This document shows, one piece after another, positions 34,719 through 41,545 of a stretch of DNA of 64,000 nucleotides; position 1 is the first letter of the stretch, and every line of letters begins with the position of its first letter. The DNA is from Bacilli bacterium (lineage in GTDB: Bacteria > Bacillota_I > Bacilli_A > RFN20 > CAG-288). A model generated the notes under the pieces. It worked only from the letters and a program-made list of their open reading frames with translations. It had not been told where the DNA came from and made no database searches. Position numbers and translations under genes: made by a program. The stretch lies in assembly GCA_022652945.1 (NCBI GenBank), contig JALCRV010000005.1, forward strand, positions 1-64,000. The letters run 5' to 3'.

Positions 34719-35744
34719 TTAGTAGGAAAGAATCCCGTTGCCTTTTTCTTCCGGAGCGAAACTGATTTCCCCGGAGAACGCATTAGCCAGAGCGGTGATT
34801 GACTGATGGATAGCGACTAAGGCCTCGGCTTCCTGCTCGAGAATCTGCGAAGGCAGATCAGCTGAGAGAGGTTTAGTCAAGGAAAGCTTGAAGCCATCAA
34901 GGAAGATTGTCATCTTATCACCGATAACAGTGAGAATCAGATCGCAGCGGACAAACTTATAAAAAGACGAGAGCGCCTGAGCCGTTTTCTTATCGATGAC
35001 CAGGTAGATATCCTGACCCAAAGTCGTAAAGCAGACGAAGGGGGCAAGCCCCGGCAGATCGCCGAAACCATATTTCCTGATCGTCAAGCCTTCATATTGT
35101 TTAATCGTCGGCTCACCGAAGGTCCTCAGTTGGATGAAGGCGTGGGAGCGGGCTTTGGATAGATCGGTTAGGACCATCAGCCCTTCTCTATTGACGCCCT
35201 CTCTTTGATAGGAATAATCCTTCCCTTCCCAGGAGAGCAAAGGGGTGGAGAATTGATAAAAAGCCTTAGGAGCAGCGGAGGAGATATTCAGCAAATCAAT
35301 ACCTTCCTCCGGATTATTGACCGAGGAGGAATAATCGATGACAAGCCCGTTGATCTTCGCTTCCTCGACCAGCATTTTCATAAACTGCTGACGGAAGCTC
35401 TTATCTAGTTTATGGATGTTGATCAGTCCGAAAATCAACCCAGCCGCGGCCGAAAGGACGACCACGCCGATAATAATAATTAAACGGAGGACATTAGCCT
35501 GAAGAGAAAAGTCGAATAACCTGCCAGTCAAGGAAGGATAAGGCCAATTAGCCAAAGCGGTCCAAGTACCAAAGGGAGCCTTCAAACCATAGTAGCCTTT
35601 GCCGAAAGCGGCCAAGAGAACATAAATGAACCAGATGGCCAAAACGAGAAAGGACACAAGAAAGGACTCAGAGAGATTTTTTCTCTTCAGCTTGCGCTGC
35701 AACTTAGCGAGCTCGTCGGATTGGCTGATGACGCTCTTAGCCAT
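34719..35744 (-). CDS. Two-helix membrane protein at the head of the glycogen operon (DUF3137-like), unknown function
   Basis: A 341-residue product. Two membrane helices (about 28-47 and 85-108) are followed by a cytoplasmic domain (about 115-340) rich in beta strands, with no catalytic motif I recognise. The layout and the WEGKDYSYQREG-type core resemble DUF3137 proteins, but this is tentative. AAAGG precedes the ATG. The gene is separated from the jet operon by a terminator and has its own promoter with an overlapping cre-like site. glgC follows after 52 bases, so it is probably the first gene of the glycogen transcript. Confidence 0.7.
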   Translation of the reverse strand: MAKSVISQSDELAKLQRKLKRKNLSESFLVSFLVLAIWFIYVLLAAFGKGYYGLKAPFGTWTALANWPYPSLTGRLFDFSLQANVLRLIIIIGVVVLSAAAGLIFGLINIHKLDKSFRQQFMKMLVEEAKINGLVIDYSSSVNNPEEGIDLLNISSAAPKAFYQFSTPLLSWEGKDYSYQREGVNREGLMVLTDLSKARSHAFIQLRTFGEPTIKQYEGLTIRKYGFGDLPGLAPFVCFTTLGQDIYLVIDKKTAQALSSFYKFVRCDLILTVIGDKMTIFLDGFKLSLTKPLSADLPSQILEQEAEALVAIHQSITALANAFSGEISFAPEEKGNGILSY

Positions 35745-35818: not shown

Positions 35819-35845
35819 AAAAAAAGGAAGATGTCACTCTTCCTT
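35819..35845 (-). terminator. Terminator of the jetABC operon
   Basis: An eight-pair stem (AAGGAAGA 35824-35831 with TCTTCCTT 35838-35845) and six-base loop that overlaps the jetC stop codon, followed on the minus strand by seven T. Confidence 0.82.
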
Positions 35846-38800
35846 TTGTTTCTGTTGGGTATCCTCGTAGCGATCGATATAGGAACGGTTGCGTTTAGCA
35901 TCGTGAATCGTCACCAAGACCAGATCGACTTCCTTGGAAAGATCACGGAGTTTTTCAGAAGGAGTGGAAAGGATCGCCTGGAGGCCGAAGCTTCTTAAAA
36001 GCCCGACCGATTCTTTGATACGGCTGCCATCCATCTTCGAGAAGGCTTCATCGAAAATCACCAGACGCAGAGAATCGGAGTCCGGATCGGAAGAACGGTA
36101 AAGCTGGGCGAAGGAAGCGAGGATAGAAATATAGAAAGGAGTCTGAGTCTCACCGCCGGATTGTCTCTTAAAGGTGCGAGCCAAGGAAGATTCCTTCTCT
36201 TCGTTCCCTCTCTTGACCAAAAGGTCGAAGATCAGGTAAGTGCGGTAATCGGTGAACTTCTGGACGTTTTCGATAATCTGCGCCCGGACATCGCCGGTCT
36301 GATCGGTCGCATCGGAAATCATATTGAACAGATCGGACATGACGCCTTTATACTTTTCCAGATAGATATCTTCAGCATCCCCGACATTGAGAAGCAAATC
36401 ATCGGTGATCATGTTGTAGTATTCCAGATAATCGCGGTTCGGCTCAACCGAGAAACGGTAGGAATCACGCCCGAAGCGGACTTCGCTTAAGGCTTGGTTC
36501 AGTTCCTCAATCTGAGAACGGATCGTCTCGAAGGAAGTGCGGAGTTTATAGATGAAATCATCCTTGAATTCCTTGATAGCTTTCTTATGGGCTTCCTCGA
36601 TCTTCGTAAGATAGCTCGGGAGCATGACGGTCGAAAGATTGGTGAGTTCTTTTTCAAAGTCACCGTTATCATTCTCCAGAGTCGTATCGTAGGACAAATT
36701 ATAAGCCGCGACATACTTGGATCGCAGATCGATCAGTTTATCCTTGGTCGACTTCAAGCGATCCTGAGTCTGGACGTAGAGAGTCTGAGCCTGAGCCTTG
36801 ATTTTATTTAAAGGCAAAGAAGAACAGGCCTTTTCAAAGAACGGAGCGAATTTCTCGCTGACCAGTTTTTGATCAAACTGCATAAGCTTTTCACCTAAGA
36901 AAGTCAAAGCCTGGCTCTTAGCCGGGATCATTTCATCGTGAAGCGTCTTGATCTGGCTATCCAACCCGCCCTGCTCCAAAAGCAAAGCCTTTTTCTCTTC
37001 ATCGATCTGTTCGAGATCATCATCGATCGATTGAATCTTCTTATCGTAAGCGGAGACCTCGGTCAGATCCCCTTCTTTCATCTCCTGTTCAAGACGGCTG
37101 GCTTCCTCGTTCAATTCCTCGACTCGTTTCATCGAAGCGATATCGGACTGGAAAGTCTTCGCCTCGGAAGTCGAAAGGACTTCAAGTTTGGTCAGAGCTC
37201 TGAAATAGGAATCCAGATCGTTATAGCATTCCAGATCCTTATTCAAAGCCGAGAACTGATCCTTCTTGGCCAAGACGGTATCTTCATCAAGCTTCGTCCC
37301 GATAAAGGAGACTTCCGCCTTTCTTTCATTCAGATAGAAAGAAGCGTAATTCCGATAGCCGGAACAGTTAGGTAACAAGCCGGAGCCAGAATCTCTCGCC
37401 TCCGCAAAGGTTTCGCATTTCTTCAAATTCCCTAAAAGGAAATCCGTATAGACCCTCGCCCCTTCATGGGAAGTGAGGACCTCTTCAGCAACCGAACCCG
37501 GCTGAGCAGTAAATCCGTGCTCCAAAAGGCGCGAGGAATCGACCACGGCCACTTGGTAGAAACCGTAATCATGGCAAATCTTCGATAAAAGACGAGCGGC
37601 TTCGTCGTAGAAAGAATCATCGACGAAGAAATTGAACTTCTGATTGAAAATATAGGCTTCGATCGCACGGGTCCATCGCTTATCGCGGATATCGACCAAA
37701 TCGCAGTAAGATTCGACCTTCGCTCCATAATGCCTTTCCTGCAAGGCGGCCTGCAAGGCTTCCTTGACCGAAAGATAATCCTGGTTAAAAGGCTTATGTC
37801 CTTCGTGGATTTCCTGCAGCTCTTTATCCAAAGAATCCCTGGAAGAAGTAAGATCGAAAATCGAATTCTCTAAAAGATGGGAAATCTTGATCGATTGGGA
37901 ATGCAAGCCAGCCATCTCAGATTGGAACTCGCTAAGCAATTTTTCATTGACACTTCTTCCATCCAAGGCTTTCACCAACTCATCGGAAGTGGAGGAGAAC
38001 TCTTTAGCGAGGTCTTTAAAGGTATCGACCTCCTCGTTTTCATTATCGGTGAGGAAAGTGGTCTGAATCGTCATCAGGCGGCTATAAAGCTTATCAAGAG
38101 CCTGTTTATAATCTTGGCAATAACGTTTCATCGTCTCGGAAATCGAAGCGTAATTATTCTCTAAAGCCGCGATTTTCTCCAAAGCCTGATTCTTCTTCTC
38201 AGCTAAAGTTGCCGAAAGAGAATAACCAGCGGAGCCGACCTTTTTAGCTAAGTAGGATTCCTTCTCCGATTTAAGCTCGGCGGATTGCTTTTCGTATTGA
38301 GCCAGACTTAAGCCGATCTCTTCAACGCGCTTTTGATCTTTTTCCAAGGTGGCGTTATAGCCATCTAAATCACCCTTAGCGGCTTCGTAGTTAGCTCGGT
38401 CGGTCACATAGTCAGCCATGACCAAGGAATCTTTGACTTTCTTAAAGTCATCGTAAGCGCGGGAGATATCAGTCAAGGAATCGATCTTGGTCTGAATCTT
38501 CTTGGCTTCCAATTCCAGAAGCTTATACTGCTCGATATTCGTCTGCATCGAAGAAATATCGATGTTGTAATCTACATCGCAGACAAACTCGGTGATAAAA
38601 GAAGAAATATCGGTAATCGGGGAGAAGGAGACAGCCTTCTTAAAAAGCGTGAAGAACTTCTCCGGGAGATCACCTAAAGTGTGCTTGATGAATTCGTGGT
38701 AGGAAACATTCGAATCGAAGAACTCATAATCCCCGGGTTTATAAGTCTCGGAAGCAATCTTGGAGAGTTCCTTATAAGTAAGCGGGCGCGGCTGCTCTTT

Positions 38801-39238
38801 ATCGAGCAGATGCGAATTGGAAAAGTCGTTCTCCGGGAAAGGAGAATGGAGATAGAAGAAATGATGTTCCTCAGTATCATCCTCGTAGCAGTCGAAAACG
38901 ATGCCGAGGGTGAACTTATCATTCGTCTTATCATCGAAGAACTCCAAAGCGACATAAGAAGTGAAACGTCCCGGGCGCAGACACATAATCTGTCCATCAG
39001 CGGTCTCGCCGGTTTCGCAGCGGAGATAGCCTCTTAAAGTACGTCCGGTCCGATCGTTAGCGGCCTTATTGAAATTGCGTCCGGAAGTATCCCCTAAGAG
39101 GACAATCTGAATCGCATCGATAATCGTCGACTTCCCCGTGCCGTTAGCACCGGTAAGGAAGGTGATATTCTTGATATCGATATCTTCGTTGGCAAATAAA
39201 TGCCAGTTGATCAGACGAAGCCTTGTCAGTGATTTCAT
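35834..39238 (-). CDS. jetC: SMC-like ATPase JetC (MukB-type, Wadjet family)
   Basis: A 1134-residue SMC-fold protein. Walker A GANGTGKST is at residues 30-38, a long coiled-coil arm region (about 230-1000) contains a globular hinge-like part near 500-660, the signature SGGET is at 1027-1031, and Walker B VIFDEAF is at about 1060-1066. The N-terminal motif LRLINWHLF resembles the MukB/JetC group. In Wadjet, JetABC is a loop-extruding condensin-like motor that senses circular plasmids. Its ATG overlaps the jetB TGA by four bases (ATGA), with AAGGAG upstream. A terminator sits at its stop codon, and no jetD follows. Confidence 0.88.
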   Translation of the reverse strand: MKSLTRLRLINWHLFANEDIDIKNITFLTGANGTGKSTIIDAIQIVLLGDTSGRNFNKAANDRTGRTLRGYLRCETGETADGQIMCLRPGRFTSYVALEFFDDKTNDKFTLGIVFDCYEDDTEEHHFFYLHSPFPENDFSNSHLLDKEQPRPLTYKELSKIASETYKPGDYEFFDSNVSYHEFIKHTLGDLPEKFFTLFKKAVSFSPITDISSFITEFVCDVDYNIDISSMQTNIEQYKLLELEAKKIQTKIDSLTDISRAYDDFKKVKDSLVMADYVTDRANYEAAKGDLDGYNATLEKDQKRVEEIGLSLAQYEKQSAELKSEKESYLAKKVGSAGYSLSATLAEKKNQALEKIAALENNYASISETMKRYCQDYKQALDKLYSRLMTIQTTFLTDNENEEVDTFKDLAKEFSSTSDELVKALDGRSVNEKLLSEFQSEMAGLHSQSIKISHLLENSIFDLTSSRDSLDKELQEIHEGHKPFNQDYLSVKEALQAALQERHYGAKVESYCDLVDIRDKRWTRAIEAYIFNQKFNFFVDDSFYDEAARLLSKICHDYGFYQVAVVDSSRLLEHGFTAQPGSVAEEVLTSHEGARVYTDFLLGNLKKCETFAEARDSGSGLLPNCSGYRNYASFYLNERKAEVSFIGTKLDEDTVLAKKDQFSALNKDLECYNDLDSYFRALTKLEVLSTSEAKTFQSDIASMKRVEELNEEASRLEQEMKEGDLTEVSAYDKKIQSIDDDLEQIDEEKKALLLEQGGLDSQIKTLHDEMIPAKSQALTFLGEKLMQFDQKLVSEKFAPFFEKACSSLPLNKIKAQAQTLYVQTQDRLKSTKDKLIDLRSKYVAAYNLSYDTTLENDNGDFEKELTNLSTVMLPSYLTKIEEAHKKAIKEFKDDFIYKLRTSFETIRSQIEELNQALSEVRFGRDSYRFSVEPNRDYLEYYNMITDDLLLNVGDAEDIYLEKYKGVMSDLFNMISDATDQTGDVRAQIIENVQKFTDYRTYLIFDLLVKRGNEEKESSLARTFKRQSGGETQTPFYISILASFAQLYRSSDPDSDSLRLVIFDEAFSKMDGSRIKESVGLLRSFGLQAILSTPSEKLRDLSKEVDLVLVTIHDAKRNRSYIDRYEDTQQKQKEE

Positions 39239-40011
39239 TTTGCATCTCCTTGGTTAACATCTTCCGCTTCAGAAGGAACTTCATTTCCTTCTTCCGGAAT
39301 GTTATCTTCTGTCCCTTCTGTTTCCGCAGGAGAGCTTTCTTCTTCTTTTTCGCCTTCATCTTCTTTTTCAGCGTCCCCGTTAAATAAGCCTTCTTCGTCA
39401 TCCTCGCCTTCATTGATTTCTTTGATGGCGCTATAAAGGGCGTTAAGCTTAGCGTTAGAAATCACGTATCTAATCGAAGGCAGAATGAAAAAGGCATAGG
39501 AGTTTTCTCCAAAGCTTCCCTTAGCCGGAACGACGATCTGATACATGGATAAGGTTCTTAAGGAACTAGCTAAAGACAAAGCGGAGATTCTTCTGGTGAC
39601 TGTAGTCAGCCCCAGGTCTTTAAGCAAAACCTTCAAAGAAGTCGAATCGCAATATATCTCGTTAACCGAAGGATTATCCTTCAGCTTCTCTTCGTAGAAA
39701 GAACGCAGCGCGTAAAGGATCAACGTGGTGACCCCATCGATTCTGATGCGGTTAGTCTCATCCTCGGAAGTCAAAAATACGACGCCGTTATCATCGTCTT
39801 TGGAGACTTCCATCCCCGCGAAGGACAGATAGTCGGAAATCAGATCGAAATGTTTTTCAATAAAAAGGTAGTCAGCGGAGATCTTATTCATCTTCGTAGC
39901 TCGATCGTACATTCTCCTGACGATGTAGCAGCGGTAAAGCAGGTCGGACACGACCTTGTGGAACTGCGCTTGCTCACCGCGGGTGAGTTTTTCAAAATCC
40001 TCTTCAAACAT
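39235..40011 (-). CDS. jetB: JetB/MukE-like winged-helix subunit
   Basis: A 258-residue protein. A helical winged-helix region (about 1-195) begins FEEDFEKLTRGEQAQFHKVV and is followed by a highly acidic, low-complexity tail (about 200-258, dominated by Glu and Asp). It occupies the MukE-like KITE position between the kleisin and the SMC subunit. The start overlaps the jetA stop (TAATG) and its end overlaps the jetC start, so all three are coupled. The subunit call rests on gene order, size and fold pattern. The acidic tail is longer than I expect for the family. Confidence 0.8.
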   Translation of the reverse strand: MFEEDFEKLTRGEQAQFHKVVSDLLYRCYIVRRMYDRATKMNKISADYLFIEKHFDLISDYLSFAGMEVSKDDDNGVVFLTSEDETNRIRIDGVTTLILYALRSFYEEKLKDNPSVNEIYCDSTSLKVLLKDLGLTTVTRRISALSLASSLRTLSMYQIVVPAKGSFGENSYAFFILPSIRYVISNAKLNALYSAIKEINEGEDDEEGLFNGDAEKEDEGEKEEESSPAETEGTEDNIPEEGNEVPSEAEDVNQGDAK

Positions 40012-41474
40012 TATACCTTCCCCTTTCTAGTGAACCGGTAATCAGGCATGAGGAAACGACCGTTCCTGGTTTGGTCCCCGATTTTTTCAATGGTATAGAA
40101 CATATCTCCGAATTCAGCTCTGACCGTCCCGAGGATCAAAAGGATCATCTGGTTCATGTCCTCGATCGGGATATCTTTCGTCTCGATGACTTTGCGGTTA
40201 CCGAAAGCCTTCAACATGAAAGCTTCGATCGCCTCGAAGGAGAACATGTTGACTTCGTTCTCTAAGAAGGCATTCATCAGATCATCATCCCCGGCAAACT
40301 GATCCTCTAAAGGCATCGGATCCATCTCTTCCTTGATGGTGCGTTTAAAAGGCATCGTCAAGCAATCGGAATCCACGAAACCTTGATGGTAAATAGAAAT
40401 CGTCTTTGAAGCTTCAAGGACAATGGGGATATCATCGATATTTGAACCCGGGCCCGCGGGTGTTTTATCAAGGGCCTTAGCCATCTGGAGAATCACCGCA
40501 TCCAGCTTGCCCTTAATCGTCTTATCCGAAGAAGAAAGGAAATTGACTTTCTTCTGGACCGCTTTGGTGTATTTGGCATTCGCCTGATCGATCTCCTCGA
40601 AGGAGGAAGAAAGCCTGGAGAAAATATCGATCGTCTCCTGAAGCATCCGGTTAATCTCAATATTGATTTCCGAAGCCTTCATCTTGGTGTAGCTAGGATC
40701 ATATTTAGCTTGGGAAACAAGCTTAGCCATGATGCGGGTATCGTGCTGCCATCTCTTCAAAATCGCCATGACCGGGAGCGAATAAAGGCCTAAAGAATCA
40801 TAAGTCTTCATCGGGTGGTAGACTTTATCGCCAACTTGGTTCTTAAAAATATCAAAGTGCTGTCTTAAGACCTCGTTCGGGTCGAAGACATTTGAAAGAT
40901 TATGTCCGAAAACGCAGATTGAATGGTGGAGCAAAGTGACGTTCAACTCCAAATCATCCGCATTCTTTCGGGCGGAGACGAGGGAGCGAAACATATAGTC
41001 GTCCTCTTTTTCGTTCTCTAAGGACAGCTCGGAGAAAGTCTGGTGAACCAGAGGCACATAAAGAGCGGTATCCGAGGAAAGCTCCGAAATAAGCTGAAGC
41101 ATTCTGATGGCGTAGGAAGGCAGGTAGATATAATCGATATTGCTCTGGGTTTCCCTTTCGACATCGATCCAACCGGTGGAGCAAAGCTTACGGAAGATAT
41201 AATTGATCTTCCCGGAAAGCGCAGAATCATCGATCACGAAAGGAATATCTTCTTCGTCCGGTTTATCATCAAGCTTATCAAGGTTAACATCAAAAAGACC
41301 CATGATATCTTCCCCATGGGCACGAAGGGCTGAAAGATAATCAGCTTTTTTGATCTTGGATTTATAGACTTTCAAGGTCTCAAAAAGCGTCAGCAAAGCG
41401 AAGGAATAAACGGCTTTATATTTTCTCGACAGCACCGAGAAGAAATTCTCGGGCAGTTTATCAAACAAATTCAA
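40011..41474 (-). CDS. jetA: JetA/MukF-like kleisin subunit
   Basis: A 487-residue, mostly helical protein beginning LFDKLPENFFSVLSRKYKAVYSFALL, quoted only as a landmark for the Wadjet JetA (DUF5716-type) N-terminal winged-helix region. A central helical region (about 190-330) and a C-terminal winged-helix region (about 400-487) complete the kleisin layout. The start codon is TTG at 41474 with GGGAGA eight bases upstream; no ATG lies nearby. It is first in the operon, with a promoter at 41516-41545. Confidence 0.82.
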   Translation of the reverse strand: MNLFDKLPENFFSVLSRKYKAVYSFALLTLFETLKVYKSKIKKADYLSALRAHGEDIMGLFDVNLDKLDDKPDEEDIPFVIDDSALSGKINYIFRKLCSTGWIDVERETQSNIDYIYLPSYAIRMLQLISELSSDTALYVPLVHQTFSELSLENEKEDDYMFRSLVSARKNADDLELNVTLLHHSICVFGHNLSNVFDPNEVLRQHFDIFKNQVGDKVYHPMKTYDSLGLYSLPVMAILKRWQHDTRIMAKLVSQAKYDPSYTKMKASEINIEINRMLQETIDIFSRLSSSFEEIDQANAKYTKAVQKKVNFLSSSDKTIKGKLDAVILQMAKALDKTPAGPGSNIDDIPIVLEASKTISIYHQGFVDSDCLTMPFKRTIKEEMDPMPLEDQFAGDDDLMNAFLENEVNMFSFEAIEAFMLKAFGNRKVIETKDIPIEDMNQMILLILGTVRAEFGDMFYTIEKIGDQTRNGRFLMPDYRFTRKGKV

Positions 41475-41515: not shown

Positions 41516-41545
41516 ATTATATATTGTGCGAGGGGAGCCAAACAA
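41516..41545 (-). promoter_or_regulatory. Promoter of the jetABC operon
   Basis: Reading leftward, TTGTTT (41545-41540), an 18-base spacer and a perfect TATAAT (41521-41516), about 40 bases ahead of the jetA TTG start. The gap back to plsC is AT-rich and shows no clear terminator hairpin. Confidence 0.65.

Follow-up and report, generated by a model that had tools for sequence, protein, structure and literature searches.

Nuclease-free JetABC, a Wadjet-group operon, as the probable chromosome condensin of a Bacilli lineage without detectable Smc-ScpAB

The window analyzed here is the whole 64,000-nucleotide stretch at the start of contig JALCRV010000005.1, from a Bacilli bacterium. Open reading frames and profile searches identified in it a jetABC operon of the type I Wadjet/Mks kind, running from 41474 to 35834 on the minus strand (Table 1). 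JetA scored 221 bits against Pfam model PF18982 (cut-off, 26), and JetB scored 57 bits against PF13835 (DUF4194; cut-off, 32.7). The length of JetA is similar across the genus and family. The reading frames overlap, by 1 nucleotide between jetA and jetB (the jetA stop codon TAA with the jetB ATG, TAATG) and by 4 nucleotides between jetB and jetC (ATGA). The ATPase motifs of JetC are intact (Walker A, GANGTGKST; signature, SGGETQ; Walker B, LVIFDEAF), and a plain sequence search gave Wadjet JetC chains as its nearest solved structures, followed by Smc heads. Profiles and sequence agree with an earlier note on this DNA, which had described three genes in the order jetA-jetB-jetC, with kleisin-like, KITE-like and MukB-like SMC products and translational coupling.

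Table 1. Features of the jetABC locus in the window
Feature	Position	Strand	Description
jetA (mksF-like kleisin)	40011..41474	-	487 aa, TTG start; PF18982 E 2.7e-65; PADLOC JetA1 308 bits
jetB (mksE-like KITE, DUF4194)	39235..40011	-	258 aa; PF13835 E 2.4e-15; PADLOC JetB1 226 bits
jetC (mksB-like SMC ATPase)	35834..39238	-	1134 aa; PADLOC JetC1 PDLC00519 1041 bits, full length
Hairpin terminator	35822..35847	-	10 bp + T run; jetC TGA in loop; scan lists + strand
Possible promoter	41516..41545	-	TATAAT, weak -35; absent from scan output
Gene for 341-aa two-TM protein	34719..35744	-	Separate gene past terminator; same place in several families

A terminator had also been placed at the jetC stop codon, and the hairpin and T run found there bear this out; the terminator closes the operon at the point where jetD would come. 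The proposed promoter of the operon was not confirmed. A perfect TATAAT is visible, the -35 element is weak, and a promoter scan performing at chance level (10 promoters found versus 9.5 expected) did not report it. The window copy of the 341-aa protein encoded past the terminator had no Pfam match, and a related copy (L124) matched DUF3137 just under the cut-off. This two-TM protein is not a nuclease and probably lies outside the JetABC complex.

JetD is the defining nuclease of Wadjet, and the earlier note had reported that the operon lacks it. The JetD model (PF09983) had no match anywhere in the genome (2.09 Mb, 92.7% complete, 20 contigs), in the four other genus members, or in any of 23 genomes sampled from the same family (f1), all 23 of which carry JetA. 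Elsewhere in the order, the same model detected JetD in 11 genomes with E values of 1e-17 or better, as well as in the control C. glutamicum, and is therefore sensitive enough. These results show that jetD is missing from the lineage as a whole and not through local decay, and they dispose of the suggestion that the nuclease is encoded elsewhere in the genome. Because the defining nuclease was tested for and is absent, this jetABC operon is not to be filed as a Wadjet defense system.

Canonical Smc was searched for in 147 genomes of the order, a group of gut bacteria, including the 23 of family f1, and the presence of Smc-ScpAB was judged by the ScpA kleisin model together with the SMC hinge model PF06470. 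ScpA exceeded the cut-off in 0/147 genomes of the order (0/23 in f1), versus 9/14 control genomes. The genome containing the window has JetA but neither ScpA nor an SMC hinge. Across the order, PF06470 gave 13 matches over the cut-off and 1 below it. Twelve of these 14 share a contig with jetA and fall immediately 3′ of it, within jetC, and the remaining two are JetC by profile (L055, 993 bits; L053, 653 bits). The hinge matches were rejected as canonical Smc since all of them fall in JetC. The JetC profile is blind to Smc in ScpA-positive controls and is uninformative on canonical Smc. Over 147 genomes, then, the order is without a detectable canonical condensin. The third reading offered in the earlier note, a condensin-like complex in an SMC-poor lineage, was thereby supported and extended from one genome to an order, with the chromosomal role itself being putative.

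A jetD gene or a canonical smc-scpAB set could have been missed through incomplete assembly or divergence, as the completeness and contig number of the genome might suggest. This is very improbable, since JetD and ScpA are missing from all 23 family genomes, including one assembled in a single 2.08-Mb contig (G061), and since the same models find JetD elsewhere in the order and ScpA in 180 genomes of the class.

JetA was detected in 96/147 genomes of the order. The JetA-negative genomes with a listed family all belong to the sister family f5, about half of which lacks JetA, except for two f3 genomes, one with JetC at a contig end and the other 65% complete. JetC is also missing in the 24 JetA-negative f5 genomes tested, many JetA-negative f5 genomes being 94 to 100% complete and some 98 to 100%. 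The complex can therefore be lost and is not indispensable everywhere. Near-complete f5 genomes such as G008, G015, and G026 yielded no JetA, JetC, ScpA, or SMC hinge, and these bacteria are apparently without any recognizable SMC condensin.

To compare operons with and without the nuclease, 80 loci were fetched, and jetA, jetB, jetC, and jetD were called with iterated profiles. jetD directly follows jetC at 16/80 loci; it is absent from the window and from the 64 others, one of which (L145) is truncated at a contig end. Both kinds are present, with one operon of each, in several genomes (G043, G090, G107, G108, G286, and G478, as well as G174, G185, and G202 of family f14). In families f1, f3, and f5, the nuclease-free operon has a fixed address: jetABC, often followed by the 341-aa membrane protein, and then glgD-glgC-glgA. 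This order was found at 17 of the 22 main-clade loci, and three more have the membrane protein only, while the glgD-glgC-glgA address was found at 0/16 jetD-bearing loci. Loci of f28 and f16 have other conserved neighbors (dnaJ, rsmE, and a methylthiotransferase-like gene; a DEAD-box helicase). In f27, the gene for the cell-division protein SepF lies immediately after jetC at 6/6 nuclease-free loci (L158, L159, L161, L162, L163, and L184), in most cases overlapping jetC or within a few bases of it. Neither of the jetD-bearing f27 copies has sepF in this place.

A different nuclease encoded after jetC was considered and rejected. The next gene varies by family (DUF3137-like membrane protein, glgC/glgD, ptsI, pepC, rsmE, and sepF), and the products identified are metabolic, membrane, peptidase, or RNA-methyltransferase proteins or SepF.

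Nuclease-free copies have kept intact ATPase motifs, with the exception of the very divergent L180 (G247, family f20), which has an altered signature, SGAE, and may represent another Mks subfamily. Omega was 0.025 to 0.11 in pairs from f5, f16, and f28 and 0.16 to 0.19 in f14 pairs, values that are approximate, with dS near saturation. The window and its nearest relatives are 60 to 67% identical, dS is saturated, and no omega is given for these comparisons. Where it can be measured, nuclease-free jetABC is under strong purifying selection. These values bear on the view, also raised in the earlier note, that the operon is a decaying Wadjet system that lost jetD and is losing the rest. The f5 genomes without jetABC fit such a course, and sporadic nuclease-free f5 copies that adjoin jetD-bearing branches (L132 to L135, L138, and L139) may be such cases. 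In the window lineage, however, the three genes have stayed intact over family-level divergence, with overlapping frames, all motifs, and a conserved address. Related lineages in which dS is measurable give omega values far below 1. Decay is a most unlikely account of this operon.

Clades of nuclease-free copies in the JetC tree track the host families (f1 and f3 with the main group of f5; f26, f27, and f28; f16; f10; and the second copy of f14). Copies with jetD are scattered among them and bring different families together, a distribution expected of mobile defense systems. Across the tree, the jetD state switches at least 9 times. A single nuclease-free clade was rejected (p-AU, 7e-8; LG+G4, 22-row set); there is more than one. 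The tree is unrooted and does not formally tell gain from loss of jetD. Of the two, loss is the more economical interpretation, since operons with jetD are also found in Cohnella, Rossellomorea, and Butyrivibrio.

The distribution also bears on whether jetABC still serves defense or plasmid control. It might sense small circles by extrusion and then silence or expel them uncut, or recruit another nuclease. JetABC does perform the shape sensing of Wadjet (PMC10586767), and all parts of the operon score as defense proteins in PADLOC. On the other hand, no other nuclease gene was seen after jetC in the lineages examined, and an operon that is fixed in its family, kept at one address, and strongly constrained contrasts with jetABCD copies, whose occurrence is patchy and scattered. 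We consider a defensive role unlikely.

The association was examined further in 395 genomes of the class Bacilli, 215 without ScpA and 180 with it. JetA was present in 102/215 genomes lacking ScpA versus 13/180 having it, and a linked JetD was present in 7 of these 102 versus 9 of these 13, counts that are not independent by descent. A kinship-corrected pairwise test of ScpA loss against jetD loss had 3 independent pairs and was not significant. By these models, 91 class genomes have neither ScpA nor JetA; families f12, f19, and f23, with genomes of 1 to 2 Mb, many of them more than 95% complete, are among those in which neither was found. Family f14 has ScpA, a complete Wadjet, and a separate nuclease-free clade, and is a plausible intermediate.

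These data suggest that this lineage probably uses the nuclease-free MksBEF/JetABC complex instead of Smc-ScpAB as its housekeeping chromosome condensin. The operon has MksBEF-type features, namely, a MukB-like SMC with a kleisin and a KITE protein, intact ATPase motifs, and no nuclease gene. A part in chromosome folding or segregation has indirect backing from the lack of detected Smc-ScpAB, the constraint, the constant address, and the sepF neighbor of f27. Loop extrusion has been shown in the literature for the related Wadjet and MukBEF complexes. We infer that JetABC extrudes loops, compacts the chromosome, and has replaced Smc-ScpAB: a dimer of JetC ATPases, with the kleisin JetA and the KITE protein JetB forming the bridge, would be loaded onto chromosomal DNA to form loops by extrusion, and without JetD this extrusion would end in compaction and segregation rather than cleavage. 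A broader proposal, which we put forward tentatively and at somewhat less than even odds, is that a Wadjet motor became the sole chromosome condensin several times independently in Bacilli (in this order; in f26 to f28; in f16; and in f10), each time dropping jetD and becoming fixed in the chromosome with loss of Smc-ScpAB, and that f14 is a living intermediate.

Like type I Wadjet (JetABCD)/MksBEFG, the operon encodes a homologous kleisin, KITE protein, and SMC ATPase, with the gene order preserved and the reading frames overlapping. It differs in having no JetD/MksG, a fixed address, family-congruent descent, and no detected Smc-ScpAB, and complete JetABCD copies of the same order sit elsewhere in both tree and genome. 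Smc-ScpAB has the same proposed job but different kleisin and KITE families. In place of the MukF and MukE families, Pfam recognizes JetA and DUF4194, and only the model of the MukB N terminus matches JetC, with a weak hit over its P-loop. MukB is much longer than JetC, and the operon further differs from MukBEF in belonging to a separate Bacilli lineage and in its type I JetABC sequences. It resembles MukBEF of enterobacteria, a nuclease-free member of the Wadjet group that took over from Smc-ScpAB as the condensin of the chromosome (PMC10586767, PMC7617805). MksBEF of P. aeruginosa, from the same superfamily, has a demonstrated role in chromosome layout and segregation (PMC7485682) but works beside Smc-ScpAB, whereas here JetABC is the only SMC condensin detected.

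MukBEF and several other members of the Wadjet group lack JetD (PMC7617805), and MksBEF is described as typically co-occurring with Smc-ScpAB or MukBEF (PMC7485682). Nuclease-free Wadjet-group operons are therefore already known, usually beside Smc-ScpAB. Descent of MukBEF and MksBEF from a Wadjet-like defense system is a published suggestion (PMC10586767), and a literature search found no documented intermediate steps. Nor did it find, subscription papers lying outside its reach, reports of nuclease-free JetABC without Smc-ScpAB in Bacilli or of Smc absence in Acholeplasma, RFN20, or RF39. The lineage-wide use of a nuclease-free Wadjet-group operon as the only detectable condensin appears to be new, with priority uncertain. 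Entire lineages seem to depend on a Wadjet motor that has no nuclease and is not accompanied by Smc-ScpAB, a related family has both machineries, and some of the same genomes carry a complete Wadjet. Together they form a natural series in which to test how a machine that kills plasmids turns into a chromosome organizer. They also carry a warning, in that annotation pipelines will label these chromosomal operons defense systems.

Columns conserved only in jetD-bearing copies were searched for as a possible JetD docking site, with few results beyond one post hoc candidate in JetA. At residue 309 of the window JetA (about 40548 to 40550, minus strand), arginine is found in 13/19 jetD-bearing copies and lysine in 59/66 nuclease-free copies from several clades, making this a candidate site linked to JetD. 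Finally, a nuclease-free jetABC operon was observed in a replicon from the Clostridia, a 251-kb plasmid record of Agathobacter rectalis (L219), and the arrangement is therefore not confined to Bacilli.
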